Origin: Modicisalibacter tunisiensis
Lineage (GTDB): Bacteria > Pseudomonadota > Gammaproteobacteria > Pseudomonadales > Halomonadaceae
Reading direction: 5' to 3'
Assembly (NCBI RefSeq): GCF_020148005.1
Contig: NZ_JAGXFD010000001.1
Location: forward strand, 2,135,739-2,199,738
DNA: 64,000 bases
The notes under the pieces were generated by a model. The model was given only the letters and a program-made list of their open reading frames with translations. It did not search any database and was not told the origin of the DNA. Within the stretch, counting starts at the first letter, position 1. Every line of letters begins with the position of its first letter. The translations under genes were made by a program, and so were the position numbers. Shown here one piece after another: positions 41,024 to 52,471 of this stretch.

Positions 41024-41099
41024 GTCCCATTCGTCTAGTGGTCCAGGACACCGCCCTTTCACGGCGGTAACAGGGGTTCGAACCCCCTATGGGACGCCA
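41024..41099 (+). tRNA. tRNA-Glu (UUC), copy 1
   Basis: 76 nt with encoded CCA. The acceptor stem GTCCCAT pairs with the 3' ATGGGAC. Anticodon loop CTTTCAC gives anticodon UUC. T-arm GGGGTTCGAACCCC. Confidence 0.97.
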
Positions 41100-41128
41100 C
41101 TTCCTCTTCGGGTGACAGGCTGGAAATT

Positions 41129-41203
41129 GCGGGAATAGCTCAGTGGTAGAGCATCGCCTTGCCAAGGCGAGGGTCGCGAGTTCGAATCTCGTTTCCCGCT
41201 CCA
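41129..41203 (+). tRNA. tRNA-Gly (GCC), copy 1
   Basis: 75 nt with encoded CCA. Acceptor GCGGGAA / TTCCCGC, anticodon loop TTGCCAA (GCC), T-arm CGAGTTCGAATCTCG. Confidence 0.97.
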
Positions 41204-41210
41204 GAATTGC

Positions 41211-41286
41211 GTCCCATTCGTCTAGTGGTCCAGGACACCGCCCTTTCACGGCGGTAACAGGGGTTCGAACCCCCTATGGGACGCCA
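41211..41286 (+). tRNA. tRNA-Glu (UUC), copy 2
   Basis: Identical in sequence to copy 1, only 7 nt after the preceding tRNA-Gly. Confidence 0.97.
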
Positions 41287-41314
41287 CTTCCGGTCTTGTC
41301 AGCGGTTGCAGGCT

Positions 41315-41389
41315 GCGGGAATAGCTCAGTGGTAGAGCATCGCCTTGCCAAGGCGAGGGTCGCGAGTTCGAATCTCGTTTCCCGCTCCA
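41315..41389 (+). tRNA. tRNA-Gly (GCC), copy 2
   Basis: Identical to tRNA-Gly copy 1, including the encoded CCA. Confidence 0.97.
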
Positions 41390-41418
41390 GTTTTTGGGGC
41401 AGCAGAAAGTGTGACGAA

Positions 41419-41465
41419 GGTCGCGAGCCGGAACGCCGGTCCGATCGAATCTCGTTTCCCGCTCC
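41419..41465 (+). pseudogene. tRNA-Gly 3' relic
   Basis: Begins GGTCGCGAG as in tRNA-Gly, then has 17 extra bases in the T-arm, then resumes TCGAATCTCG and TTTCCCGCTCCA to the CCA end. The 5' half is missing, so it cannot fold as a tRNA. It sits between the second Gly and third Glu genes. Confidence 0.8.
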
Positions 41466-41472
41466 AGATTGC

Positions 41473-41548
41473 GTCCCATTCGTCTAGTGGTCCAGGACAC
41501 CGCCCTTTCACGGCGGTAACAGGGGTTCGAACCCCCTATGGGACGCCA
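41473..41548 (+). tRNA. tRNA-Glu (UUC), copy 3
   Basis: Identical to copies 1 and 2. It follows 7 bp after the tRNA-Gly relic, the same spacing as between Gly copy 1 and Glu copy 2. Confidence 0.97.
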
Positions 41549-41576
41549 CCTGCTTGCATCCGACCTTCCTTGAAAA

Positions 41577-41651
41577 GCGGGAATAGCTCAGTGGTAGAGC
41601 ATCGCCTTGCCAAGGCGAGGGTCGCGAGTTCGAATCTCGTTTCCCGCTCCA
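41577..41651 (+). tRNA. tRNA-Gly (GCC), copy 3
   Basis: Identical to the other two copies. Last gene of the array; no clear intrinsic terminator follows in the 219 bp before yadG, where I see no other gene. Confidence 0.97.
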
Positions 41652-45658: not shown

Positions 45659-45746
45659 GGAGGGGTGTCCGAGTGGTCGAAGGAGCACGCCTGGAAAGTG
45701 TGTAAGTCGAAAGGCTTCGAGGGTTCGAATCCCTCCCCCTCCGCCA
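45659..45746 (+). tRNA. tRNA-Ser (GGA)
   Basis: 88 nt with long variable arm and encoded CCA. Acceptor GGAGGGG / CCCCTCC, anticodon loop CTGGAAA (GGA), T-arm GAGGGTTCGAATCCCTC. Confidence 0.97.
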
Positions 45747-45790: not shown

Positions 45791-45822
45791 CCGTACCTGC
45801 AACTCTACCCACAATAAAGAAA

Positions 45823-45850
45823 GCCCGGACCCCTGAGGCAGGGGCCGGGC
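45823..45850 (-). terminator. Minus-strand intrinsic terminator
   Basis: Stem GCCCGGACCCCT / AGGGGCCGGGC (one bulged base). Read on the minus strand it is followed by TTTCTTTATT. It lies 12 bp downstream of the stop of a degenerate minus-strand frame, so a real gene once ended here. Confidence 0.8.
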
Positions 45851-45862
45851 CAGTCCAGGCTT

Positions 45863-46036
45863 TCATCGGGCTTTCTTGAGCGCTTCGAGCGCCGTCTTCC
45901 TTGATGCTCTTTCGCGGGCGTCCTGCCCGCGCATCCCTGGCAACCTGAGCCATCCTGGCTCGTTCTTCCCTGAGCTGGGCTTCCTGCCCAACGAGGGTGA
46001 TATTGCCGAATTTAAACTCGGTGATGAATAACCCAT
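45863..46036 (-). pseudogene. Probable remnant of a small minus-strand gene
   Basis: Between tRNA-Ser and the CZB chemoreceptor lie about 430 bp without an intact gene. On the minus strand one frame reads FKFGNITLVGQEAQLREERA then RMAQVARDARAGRPRKS. A second frame carries on RERASRKTALEALKKAR to a stop directly before an intrinsic terminator. The two look like one helical, charged protein split by a frameshift. I do not recognise the family. The remaining bases (46037-46178) show nothing I can support. Confidence 0.35.
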
Positions 46037-46178
46037 GTTATGAAGATCTGTAGGATTTTGCCTACAAGAATGAGAGGCGTCGCGTTCCAGCGCCGTGTCC
46101 CTGAGTATATGCCGCCGGACCTCCACAGATGACGAGGGTGCGAATGGCATGCGCCCGGAACCGACCGACTGGGGGCAT

Positions 46179-47318
46179 TCATGCGCCTGCCGGCAATGCG
46201 TCGGGGACCGGGGTGGCCGACGTCGGTTCGGCCGTGGCGAGGCTGGTTTGGTGCATATCCGGACGATACTTGCGCATGATGTAGCGCAGCCGTTTCATGA
46301 CATCCAGATTCGCGGACTCCATCGTCGCCAGGGCGTCCATTGCCGCATCCATGCGCCCCTCCTGGTAAAGGGTCACGGCTTCGATGGCGCGCTGGTGTAC
46401 TTCACGGTGCCGTGCCTCCAGCGCCTGAAAGTCCGTGTCACTATAGAATTGCTGGCTTGCCGTTCCCGAATAGTACCAGCGGCCCAGGGCGCACTGGGTT
46501 TCGTCGGGTAGATCCGCGGCCGTCTTGTCCGAGAGACCCATGAGGATACGATAGACCTCCAGCTTGATTTCCAGCTCTTCCAGGTTGGCCAGCTCGACTT
46601 CGCTGAGCATGGCCGAGAAGGCCAGCGCCTGGCTGCTTTCGTCGCTCAGTTCCAGCAATTGGTCGGTGCGCTGCATCACGCGGCTGGCCTCGGCGCTCAG
46701 ACGCTCAGCCTTGCGGGCATTGTCGTCCATCACGCCGTCGACCTGATCGGCCTGGTCCAGAATGCTGCCGTTGAACCCGCCGATCTCGTCGGTGGCGTCG
46801 TTGGTGCGCCGGGCGAGCTGACGAACCTCGGTGGCCACCACCGCGAAACCACGGCCGGCATCGCCGGCCCGGGCCGCTTCGATGCTGGCGTTGAAGGCCA
46901 GCAGGGTGGTCTGCATGGAGATGTCGTTGATGACGGTGACAAAGTTGTCGATGCGACCTGCATCGCAGCGCAGCGAGGTGACCTGTTCGGCGGCCTGACC
47001 GATGCGGGCATTGAGAGCGCGCAGCTCATCGACCATGGCATTCAGGGCGTCCTGGCTGCGCTTCGATTCGCTGGTCGTGAAGTCGGTGACCTGCCGGTTG
47101 CCCTTCAGCAGCTCCGAGAGGTCCGAGAAGGACTCGCGCAGGGCGACCACGGAGTCGCCGAACCCGGTGAGGTTGGTGAACAGGTGCTGGTGCAACCGCT
47201 GTTCGGACTCCAGGGTGTCGATGCGGGCTTGAAGATGATCGCGCTCGGCGCGCAGCGCGTCGGTGGTGGCATTCGTGGCATCTCGAGCAGACGATGGGCT
47301 ACGTCGAAAGAATCGCAT
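46179..47318 (-). CDS. Soluble methyl-accepting chemotaxis-type receptor with CZB domain
   Basis: 379 residues, no transmembrane segments. An N-terminal coiled coil (about 25-60) leads to an MCP signalling hairpin with the tip [20 protein letters not shown] near residue 150 and [15 protein letters not shown]. The C-terminal zinc-binding CZB domain shows [10 protein letters not shown] and [10 protein letters not shown]. The His normally preceding in the first CZB helix reads [11 protein letters not shown] here, so one ligand seems replaced. It lies 78 bp downstream of ric and may share its NorR/sigma-54 promoter. CZB receptors sense zinc or hypochlorous acid in other species. Confidence 0.88.
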
Positions 47319-47396
47319 GCGGTCTCCGGATGGGGCTGAGGCAGGGGGCACGGCTTCCCGACAGGGGGCGCGGGGCCCCCGTCGGTGGAGGATGTG

Positions 47397-50509: not shown

Positions 50510-50836
50510 TCAGGCTCTGGGAGGGCGACGCGGGGGCTCGGGGACATGTTCGCTCACGGTGACGGCGGCCATGAGCGGGCGAGCGAACGGGGGAGTGACC
50601 GCGGGCTGTAACGAGGCCACGGGAGGCGCACAAGCCGAGCCGCAGTCCGCCTGCATGTCCGGCGTCTGTCCCTGGGCGAGCATCTTGCCCTGAAGCGGGG
50701 AACAGTCGTTCCGGCAGGTAAGCGTGGCTGCGTGGCTCGTGGGGAGCGTGACCAGGACCAGCAGCAGGACCAGCGGCAGCGCCAGCAGGCGTGGCCGGGT
50801 CTGTCGGTTCGGCAATGTCCAGGTCCGCAATGGCAT
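50510..50836 (-). CDS. Small secreted cysteine-containing protein, unknown family
   Basis: About 108 residues. A clear signal peptide (RLLALPLVLLLVLVTLPTSHA) is followed by a short mature part with four cysteines in two pairs (CRNDC and CGSAC) and a Pro/Arg-rich tail. I do not recognise the family. It sits upstream of the DUF411 gene on the same strand, and the cysteine pattern would suit metal or disulfide chemistry. The 207 bp between the two genes contain no gene I can support. Confidence 0.5.
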   Translation of the reverse strand: MPLRTWTLPNRQTRPRLLALPLVLLLVLVTLPTSHAATLTCRNDCSPLQGKMLAQGQTPDMQADCGSACAPPVASLQPAVTPPFARPLMAAVTVSEHVPEPPRRPPRA

Positions 50837-51015
50837 GGTGGGCTCCCCCGAGGCGTCGAGATTCATTGAACCCGAGACGCCCGGACGATGCAATCCTCGG
50901 CAACCAGGGGCGCGGGCGGCGGCAGTCGTAATCCAGTCGGACGGAGGAGTGGCAAATTCCCTAAGACGAATTAACCATTTTTCGATGTTCTTAACATGGG
51001 TTATCTATAAGCGCC

Positions 51016-51178
51016 CGGGCAGGGCATGTAGGGTAGGACTGGACAGGGATGCCGGCCAGGGAAGAATGGGCACAGGACGCTCGCAATGCCAGGGATGCAC
51101 GAGCAGGACGCTTGTGGTGAGCTTGCAGGGAGGCGCGACGATTGAAGGCCTGCTCCGAGAGGGGCAGGCCTTTTCTTT
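51016..51178 (+). ncRNA. CsrB/RsmZ-type regulatory RNA (CsrA/RsmA decoy)
   Basis: Eight GGA motifs within about 100 nt (including AGGAC, TGGAC, two CAGGACG-like, several AGGGAT/AGGGAG). They alternate with short stems that place GGA in loops, for example CGAGC-AGGAC-GCTTG and TGC-CAGGGAT-GCA. The unit ends in an intrinsic terminator. This is the architecture of RNAs that titrate CsrA/RsmA. A -10-like CTATAA at 51005 suggests a start near 51016. No protein frame on this strand explains the terminator. I find no convincing GacA box upstream, so GacA control is open. Confidence 0.75.
51145..51178 (+). terminator. Intrinsic terminator of the Csr/Rsm-type RNA
   Basis: Perfect 9-bp stem AAGGCCTGC / GCAGGCCTT, 10-nt loop, then TTCTTT. 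It ends 15 bp before the 3' end of umuC, which lies on the other strand. Confidence 0.88.
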
Positions 51179-51193
51179 GCTCATGCATGACGC

Positions 51194-52471
51194 TCAGTGG
51201 ACCTTCGCCACGGGCAGTTCCGCCCAGCGGGTCGTCCAGCGGTGGCTGCGGTTCGCGCAGCGCAGCGGCCAGGCGGCGCCGGGGCGGGGCATGCCGAAGG
51301 CCACGGTATCACGTCCCAGGTGCCGGTTGAGGCGGTCCAGCGTGGCCATCAGCGCTTCACTGCGTCGCCGCTCGGAATCGCCCTGCGGCGCATCGAGCAG
51401 CGACAGCTGGTAATGGTCGGCATCGATCAGGTCGAACAGCATCACGCCGCCCTTCAGGAACCGATACCCCCGACGGTGAATGCGCTCGAGCGCAGCCAGC
51501 GCCGCCTGCAGGATCAAGCGGCTGTCATCGGTGGGACGATCCATCTCGATGACGAGGCTTGGTGCGTACTGAGGCAGATCAACCCGATGGGGAGGTGTGC
51601 GGAGAAACACCTGCACCGCACGGCACAGGCTGCGCTGCTGCCGCAGCTTTTCCGCACCCCGCTGGGCGTGCTGTCGAATCGCCTCGCGCAGCTCCCCGAG
51701 TTCATGGATCAGCTGCCCGAAGCTGCGCGAGGTCATGATGCGCTGTCTGGTTGCAGCGGTGTCGTTCATCTCGATTGCCGCAATGCCGCGCAATTCCAGC
51801 ACGGTACGCGAGAGCGGGGCGCCGAAGCGCCGGCGAATCGCGCGGGAGGCGGCATGGCGCAGCTGCGCGGCGGTGCGGATGCCCGCCAGGAACAGGCGTT
51901 CCGCCAGCCGTCGGCCGACACCCCAGATCTCCTTCAGGTCGGTGCGCGAAAGCAGCGCCCGGGTTTCGGGGCCGTCGGCGGTGAGCACGCAGACGCCGTC
52001 ATGCTCCTCCTTCTTGGCCGCGCGGTTGGCCAGCTTGGCCAGGGTACGCGTGGGCGCGACTCCCACGGACACCGGAATGCCGGTGTACTGGCGCACCCGT
52101 CGATGCAGCCTGCGCGCCAGGGCGAGCGTGCCGTCGGCATCGAGACCGTCGAAGCGCACGAACATCTCGTCGATCGAGTAGGGCTCGACCCCCGGGGCAA
52201 GCTCCTCGAGCACCGCCTGAACCCGGGCGGACATGTCGCCGTAGAGCTCGTAGTTGGACGAGAGCAATACCGCGCCGTGGCGTGTCGTCAGGTCGCGCAA
52301 CCGAAAGGCCGGGACGCCCATCCCCACGCCCAGCGCCTTGAGTTCCTCCGAGCGGGCGATGACACAGCCGTCGTTGTTGGAAAGCACGCCCACCGGGGTG
52401 CCTTCCAGGCGTGGCTGGAAGACGCGCTCGCAGCTGACGTAGAAGTTGTTGCAGTCGACCAGGCCGAACAT
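51194..52471 (-). CDS. umuC: Y-family DNA polymerase V catalytic subunit UmuC
   Basis: Error-prone translesion polymerase. 425 residues. It starts MFGLVDCNNFYVSCERVFQP with the first catalytic Asp. YSIDEMFVRFDG holds the second acidic pair. GVAPTRTLAKLANRAAKK and the helix-hairpin-helix IWGVGRRLAERL follow, and the little-finger and C-terminal regions are complete. It lies 7 bp downstream of umuD, under the same LexA box. Confidence 0.95.
   Translation of the reverse strand: MFGLVDCNNFYVSCERVFQPRLEGTPVGVLSNNDGCVIARSEELKALGVGMGVPAFRLRDLTTRHGAVLLSSNYELYGDMSARVQAVLEELAPGVEPYSIDEMFVRFDGLDADGTLALARRLHRRVRQYTGIPVSVGVAPTRTLAKLANRAAKKEEHDGVCVLTADGPETRALLSRTDLKEIWGVGRRLAERLFLAGIRTAAQLRHAASRAIRRRFGAPLSRTVLELRGIAAIEMNDTAATRQRIMTSRSFGQLIHELGELREAIRQHAQRGAEKLRQQRSLCRAVQVFLRTPPHRVDLPQYAPSLVIEMDRPTDDSRLILQAALAALERIHRRGYRFLKGGVMLFDLIDADHYQLSLLDAPQGDSERRRSEALMATLDRLNRHLGRDTVAFGMPRPGAAWPLRCANRSHRWTTRWAELPVAKVH

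Follow-up and report, generated by a model that had tools for sequence, protein, structure and literature searches.

An intergenic element of Modicisalibacter tunisiensis is predicted, with a probability of roughly 90%, to specify a Csr/Rsm antagonist small RNA. The prediction draws on sequence comparison, which shows a conserved and structured element between genes that carries a terminator of its own and repeated CsrA-type sites and has several paralogues, in a genome that encodes one csrA together with gacA. On the same basis we infer that these predicted RNAs are transcribed, bind CsrA and act in regulation. The wider family, its expansion and a promoter element near -42 are a more interesting result than the single locus. 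The initial annotation had presented the locus as a global post-transcriptional hub; instead, it is one of several putative decoys, with seven candidates in the genome, two of which fall within the window (the whole 64,000-nt stretch of DNA that was analysed).

Anatomy of the focal RNA

The features of the focal RNA and of a sibling copy in the same window are collected in Table 1. Eight GGA motifs had been reported ahead of the terminator, and all eight were located on the plus strand at 51036, 51041, 51047, 51060, 51075, 51093, 51106 and 51129. The bare count is weak when set against chance, with eight or more reached by 8% of 2000 dinucleotide shuffles and by two more plus-strand places in the 64-kb window; the GGA count alone was dropped as evidence because it is too common in shuffles. 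The extended, CsrA-like motif CA(R)GGANG, which was picked post hoc once the sequence had been seen, is decisive in this respect: it occurs six times in the focal RNA as compared to a mean of 0.32 in shuffles, and none of 2000 dinucleotide shuffles reached six. When both strands of the window were scanned for 130-nt segments with at least four such motifs, only two runs were obtained, the focal locus and 45957-46061 on the minus strand.

Table 1. Coordinates of predicted features in the window (positions of the whole stretch)
Feature	Position	Strand	Basis or remark
Predicted Csr/Rsm decoy sRNA (focal)	51040-51178	+	about 139 nt, 5' end predicted; R1 match 51033-51142
Hairpin 1 with loop GGA (GGGC-ACAGGAC-GCTC)	51068-51082	+	conserved helix 1; weak fold by itself
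Hairpin 2 with AGGAC loop, 7-bp stem	51098-51116	+	conserved helix 2; fold prediction
Intrinsic terminator	51144-51178	+	terminator scan and fold
GGCAAATT element	50951-50958	+	common to T82-2 orthologue (alignment)
TAACATGGGTTA inverted-repeat-like promoter element	50992-51003	+	conserved; centre about -42 of predicted start
Likely -10 hexamer TAGGGT, predicted	51029-51034	+	aligned to TATGGT of T82-2
umuC-like translesion polymerase gene, convergent with focal RNA	51194-52471	-	NCBIfam NF002955, Pfam IMS
127-aa ORF flanking focal RNA	50510-50893	-	ORF list
Sibling decoy RNA core (predicted)	45888-45996	-	R1 82.7 bits, E 4.7e-22; R1 training member
Sibling TAACATGGGTTA element, identical to focal one	46029-46040	-	promoter comparison
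Sibling GacA-box-like TGTAGGCAAAATCCTACA	46049-46066	-	10/12 arm positions
Sibling intrinsic terminator	45815-45850	-	terminator scan

Two hairpins present GGA in their loops. The short stem CGAGC-AGGAC-GCTTG with one G-U pair, noted at the outset, is part of hairpin 2, whose arms CACGAGC (51098-51104) and GCTTGTG (51110-51116) form seven pairs including the G-U. Structure prediction, one of the checks proposed initially, came out strongly for the terminator, with a stem at 51144-51173 of 13 pairs (-25.5 kcal/mol, z -4.7), and only modestly for the whole fold, which is more stable than shuffles by a z of about -1.8 to -2.0; hairpin 1 folded singly is no better than shuffles (z 0.3).

The focal RNA is an intergenic unit with its own intrinsic terminator, and both flanking genes are on the minus strand. 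As described initially, no plus-strand gene was recognised ahead of the terminator, where longer mechanical plus-strand ORFs are present. The product of the umuC-like gene matched Pfam IMS and scored 417 bits against NF002955, slightly below the cut-off of 431, while the 127-aa ORF had no match in NCBIfam or Pfam.

Conservation of the family in Halomonadaceae

A blastn comparison with 250 genomes of Halomonadaceae, to which named relatives assign the window, gave matches in 21 of them. From these 21 genomes 29 cores of about 110 nt were taken, which in nearly all rows stop short of the terminator; their alignment (A1) was used to train a covariance model, R1. RNAalifold applied to A1 yields two hairpins, each with a GGA loop, and two-sided compensatory changes were found at 8 of the 11 pairs. 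The covariation score of A1 is 0.401 as compared to 0.239 in shuffles, and neither any of 500 shuffles nor any slid version reached it; paired cells account for 96.2% in A1 versus at most 40.2% in the slid versions. The count of further pair types in A1 is not above that in shuffles (262 of 500). The invariant columns are mainly the GGA loops, the linkers and the stems of these loops. Conservation of the GGA motifs in relatives had been set initially as one of two tests that could refute the proposal, and it was passed: their positions and spacing are kept, as are the two loop hairpins with their compensatory changes. Each family core of about 110 nt contains 5-10 GGA, and a terminator is located 3' of 97 of the 112 copies examined.

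These observations bear on two other explanations of the locus. One is that the terminator belongs to umuC, or is bidirectional, and that the GGA-rich stretch is incidental. The end of umuC does lie some 20 nt from the terminator hairpin on the opposite strand; however, the terminator scan calls this hairpin on the plus strand only, the core is conserved with compensatory changes in an alignment that leaves out the terminator in nearly all rows, and the six other candidates in the same genome are located elsewhere than umuC. This explanation is highly improbable and was rejected. The other is that one of the two strands encodes a short protein. The plus-strand frame from the core start has no stop over 150 nt in six of the eight copies examined, all three minus-strand frames are open in the focal copy, and minus-strand ORFs of 59 and 65 aa as well as a plus-strand ORF of 229 aa span the focal RNA. 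Nevertheless, no single frame is open across all eight copies, the indels among orthologues are not multiples of three, and the substitutions preserve base pairs, so that the coding explanation, with a practically negligible probability, was also rejected.

The focal RNA itself, a training member of R1, scores 93.5 bits (E 3.6e-25) against this model. Under strict filters, and with scoring limited to 15 candidates per genome, R1 matched 126 of the 250 family genomes at E<=0.001, the remaining 124 giving no match. In a sample of 293 genomes from the order, 11 were matched, nine from Halomonadaceae and two from outside the family (E about 7e-4 to 8e-4). One of the outside matches (L160, 1360-1620 on the minus strand, E 7e-4) appears by eye to be a longer GGA-rich RNA of CsrB type with its own terminator, and RsmZ gives a match below threshold (24 bits, E 0.05) directly downstream of the R1 match on the same strand. 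The second (L161) is GGA-rich and unproven.

The neighbourhood of umuC is shared by a part of the family. R1 was run on 67 of 80 named umuC loci and gave 12 matches in eight of them, while 59 loci, some of which come from outside Halomonadaceae, had no nearby copy. At six loci the arrangement of the window recurs, the copy lying just beyond the 3' end of umuC and convergent with that gene: T82-2, Billgrantia montanilacus, Halomonas sp. McH1-25, Halomonas sp. DQ26W, H. korlensis and B. kenyensis.

Relation to known Csr/Rsm RNAs

The initial annotation had named CsrB, RsmY and RsmZ and suggested a covariance search with these families. The search was negative for the focal RNA, which was missed by the Rfam Csr/Rsm models at the gathering score and, even as a sub-threshold match, at permissive thresholds; it is thus formally outside those families. 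Rfam detected only tRNAs in the 64-kb window, including, at 41024-41648, six tRNA genes that make up three repeated pairs with two alternating scores. At 20 loci of the family no Csr/Rsm match reached the gathering score, and only tRNAs and a pair of guanidine-II riboswitches were hit. Below threshold, RsmY or RsmZ matched the copy itself, on its own strand, at five of seven Halomonadaceae loci, with E values from 0.0015 for the best to 0.36 for the weakest. The sub-threshold RsmY match at the sibling was not counted, since it overlaps the core by only 14 nt and extends beyond the terminator. Other Rfam families also gave sub-threshold matches in the loci tested for RsmY/RsmZ, presumably by chance. 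The proposal of a Csr/Rsm-type decoy therefore stands on the motifs, the hairpins, their conservation and the presence of CsrA and GacA genes, and falls as far as membership in the Rfam CsrB, RsmY or RsmZ families is concerned. By its anatomy the focal RNA fits the functional class of Csr/Rsm decoys, outside any named Rfam family.

The closest resemblance is to RsmY and RsmZ of Pseudomonas (RF00195, RF00166), which have a similar size, GGA motifs recurring in loops of hairpins and in linkers, and an intrinsic terminator; rsmY and rsmZ fragments of 126 and 132 bp, respectively, have been described (PMC6715622). The likeness extends to the promoters, 63 of the 112 family copies having a GacA-box-like site, and to the sub-threshold matches at five of the seven loci. 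In contrast to RsmY/RsmZ, the family stays below the Rfam gathering scores, the focal copy has neither a match nor a GacA box, a conserved TAACCYRGGTTA is found near -42 (a feature compared on the family side only), and some relatives carry far more copies. CsrB/CsrC of Enterobacteria and CsrB-D of Vibrio are likewise multi-copy CsrA decoys under a GacA homologue; csrB1 of V. tasmaniensis is given as independent of VarS/VarA (PMC6262261). The focal RNA matches none of their Rfam models, and the family core has fewer CsrA-type sites, with 5-10 GGA per about 110 nt versus the 18 sites of CsrB quoted in a review (PMC7366521). Multiplication of decoy RNAs in one lineage is also known from RsmX-1/RsmX-2 of P. 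brassicacearum (PMC7911923) and from P. syringae DC3000, with five rsmX in addition to rsmY and rsmZ (PMC6715622). Two to three copies of csrB genes are described as usual, and four are given for V. tasmaniensis and putatively for Photobacterium profundum (PMC6262261). The rsmX systems differ from the present family in copy number, which reaches 18 loci in one relative (G118) and 12 in each of two others (G110 and G122).

It is also conceivable that a small RNA of the same anatomy acts by base pairing or through a protein other than CsrA. Binding of CsrA by the focal RNA is a prediction, which leaves room for such a role; on the other hand, what is invariant in the alignment is chiefly the GGA loops and linkers along with the stems, and RsmY/RsmZ matches, albeit sub-threshold, occur at five of seven copies. 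We assign this alternative a very small probability and retain the Csr/Rsm decoy as the preferred reading.

CsrB-like RNAs were also predicted in a paper of 2006, which might list a Halomonadaceae genome. No description of the present RNAs was found among the matches listed from the open-licence literature on Halomonadaceae Csr/Gac/Rsm, on CsrB prediction and on Halomonas RNA mapping, nor in the accessible parts of PMC7366521, PMC13414033 and PMC12889724. In the table of a 2020 review (PMC7366521), the decoy sRNA that would act on CsrA of Halomonas anticariensis is entered as unknown, and the table of a 2026 preprint gives the CsrA-regulated pathways of H. hydrothermalis as uncharacterized (PMC12889724).

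Promoters, regulators and multiplication of the putative decoys

The promoter set comprised 112 copies with enough upstream sequence; copy-rich genomes supplied most of them, and the copies are not independent observations. The TAACATGGGTTA element of the focal copy has a family consensus of about TAACCYRGGTTA and occupies a near-fixed spot around 43 nt ahead of the model core, where at least 8 of its 12 positions match in the 77 copies that could be anchored. An element score of at least 10 anywhere in 250 nt was reached by 30 of the 112 copies versus about 0.9% of shuffles. The position around -43 is that expected of a class II activator site. Among anchored copies, 78-79% carry an A 36 nt and a T 40 nt past the element start, in a sample whose base frequencies are skewed to the consensus because anchoring selects for the element. 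The conserved A and T resemble the second and sixth bases of a -10 hexamer, and their spacing suggests that transcription starts close to the model start. Relative to such a start the TAACCYRGGTTA element would be centred around -42 and the GacA box around -64 or -88. For the focal copy, the start would fall near 51040; the locus indicated initially is correct, whereas the start given there, 51004, would lie within the promoter.

GacA-box-like sites with at least 9 of 12 arm positions occur at two fixed distances in the 63 copies mentioned above, with 48 sites around -69 and 15 around -92 relative to the model start, as compared to 0, 4 and 3 of 112 copies in control windows of equal width. 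No GacA box is recognisable in the focal promoter, the best site having 7 of 12 positions in 250 nt and 6 of 12 at the expected distances. The focal RNA therefore need not be under Gac control as RsmY and RsmZ are, and may be a Gac-independent sibling. The GGCAAATT element is common to the focal copy and its T82-2 orthologue, and in the form GGCAAA it was seen by eye upstream of these two, the gacA-linked copies L117 and L169, and an ftsH-linked copy of the same genome (L120), all of which lack a GacA box. Clear GacA boxes are present in the umuC-linked copies of B. montanilacus and DQ26W and absent from the focal one, which suggests promoter turnover.

The sibling RNA, at 45815-45996 on the minus strand and with a start predicted around 45993, is absent from the initial annotation and was found both by blastn and by motif density. 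It is flanked by a tRNA gene (45659-45743) on one side and a CZB chemoreceptor-like gene (46179-47351) on the other. Apart from the focal RNA and this sibling, both of them training members, R1 found nothing in the 64-kb window up to E 10. The sibling promoter combines a GacA-box-like site with the TAACATGGGTTA element. The focal copy has no GacA box yet keeps TAACATGGGTTA near -42, and would thus probably be switched on by another input than the sibling.

As for the regulators, one csrA was found in the genome, and its product matches solved CsrA over residues 1-59. GacA is encoded at L114:6821-7519, directly before uvrC (NF007018, 286 bits versus a cut-off of 280). The BarA sensor domain PF09984 had no match in the genome, and GacS was not identified by that search. 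In the proposed mechanism the focal RNA would be transcribed from about 51040, the GGA sites in the hairpin loops and linkers of each RNA would bind several CsrA dimers, and the resulting drop in free CsrA would release CsrA-repressed mRNAs.

Six copies in the genome were detected by R1 at E <1e-4. A second model, R2, was built from 116 matches, including all copies from this genome and three that repeat a place already included; it gave seven candidates at E<=0.01, the weakest at 1.1e-4, all seven being training rows of R2. A third strong copy (L114, 3995-4215, minus strand) is situated 2.7 kb away from gacA, beside a regulator gene of Crp/Fnr type that runs divergently to it, and the weak seventh candidate sits between this regulator gene and gacA. 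A further R1 match (L122, 19.8 bits, E 0.03) was set aside as probably within coding sequence, judged by eye, and two more had E values of 1.2 and 5.0.

With permissive filters, R1 matched 14 of 20 chosen genomes, which were copy-rich picks together with genomes of the same genus (six without a match) and do not form a random sample. The largest numbers of matches were 19 in G118, 13 in G110 and 12 in G122, which reduce to 18, 12 and 12 loci when matches on one strand that lie closer together than 250 nt are counted as one. The 19 matches of G118 are diverged, with pairwise identities of 53-91% (median 65%), and 12 of them have a GacA-box-like site of at least 9/12 at the two expected distances. 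R2 at E<=0.01 matched 14 of 30 chosen genomes; among the six same-genus genomes that R1 left without a match, R2 detected nothing in two and no more than one or two weak matches (E between 2.4e-5 and 0.004) in each of the other four. Expansion of another kind was found in G098 (contig C35, L029 1430-1727), where a Csr/Rsm-like RNA contains 4.4 copies of a 68-bp tandem unit with 94% matches. The upstream flank of this repeat-array copy resembles by eye that of L120.

Such multiplicity might also be expected of a dispersed repeat, either of the REP kind or travelling with insertion sequences, that spreads GGA hairpins without any decoy role. Besides the multiple copies, the tandem clusters in relatives and the tandem-repeat expansion in one of them, one copy in this genome (L119) is in a locus with an ORF named by eye as IS30-type transposase-like. 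However, many copies have promoter elements at fixed distances and terminators, the copies in this genome are just 55-87% identical to one another and nonetheless keep loops and stems, and the umuC-linked copy is present in several named genera. A repeat element is accordingly very unlikely and was rejected in favour of a family of decoy RNAs.

We tentatively propose, with somewhat less than even confidence, that some Halomonadaceae possess hyper-expanded decoys, either as up to 18 diverged loci or as a tandem-repeat array. Each promoter would be tied to a different input, through a GacA box at either distance, a shared activator site around -42, or a GacA-free arrangement with GGCAAA like that of the focal copy, and CsrA activity would sum many signals instead of one Gac signal. 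The family Halomonadaceae includes industrial producers of polyhydroxyalkanoate and ectoine. The present analysis supplies decoy candidates for this family along with a covariance model able to annotate them, and since the present genome has seven candidates and a relative as many as 18 loci, the need for many decoys becomes directly testable.

Two minor observations concern the surroundings of copies in relatives. Downstream of the repeat-array copy in G098, a second GGA-rich stretch is followed by a hairpin and a T run, as judged by eye. The two guanidine-II riboswitches above the Rfam cut-off (L217, 3062-3112, and L220, 784-834) are located inside clusters of decoy copies in two relatives.
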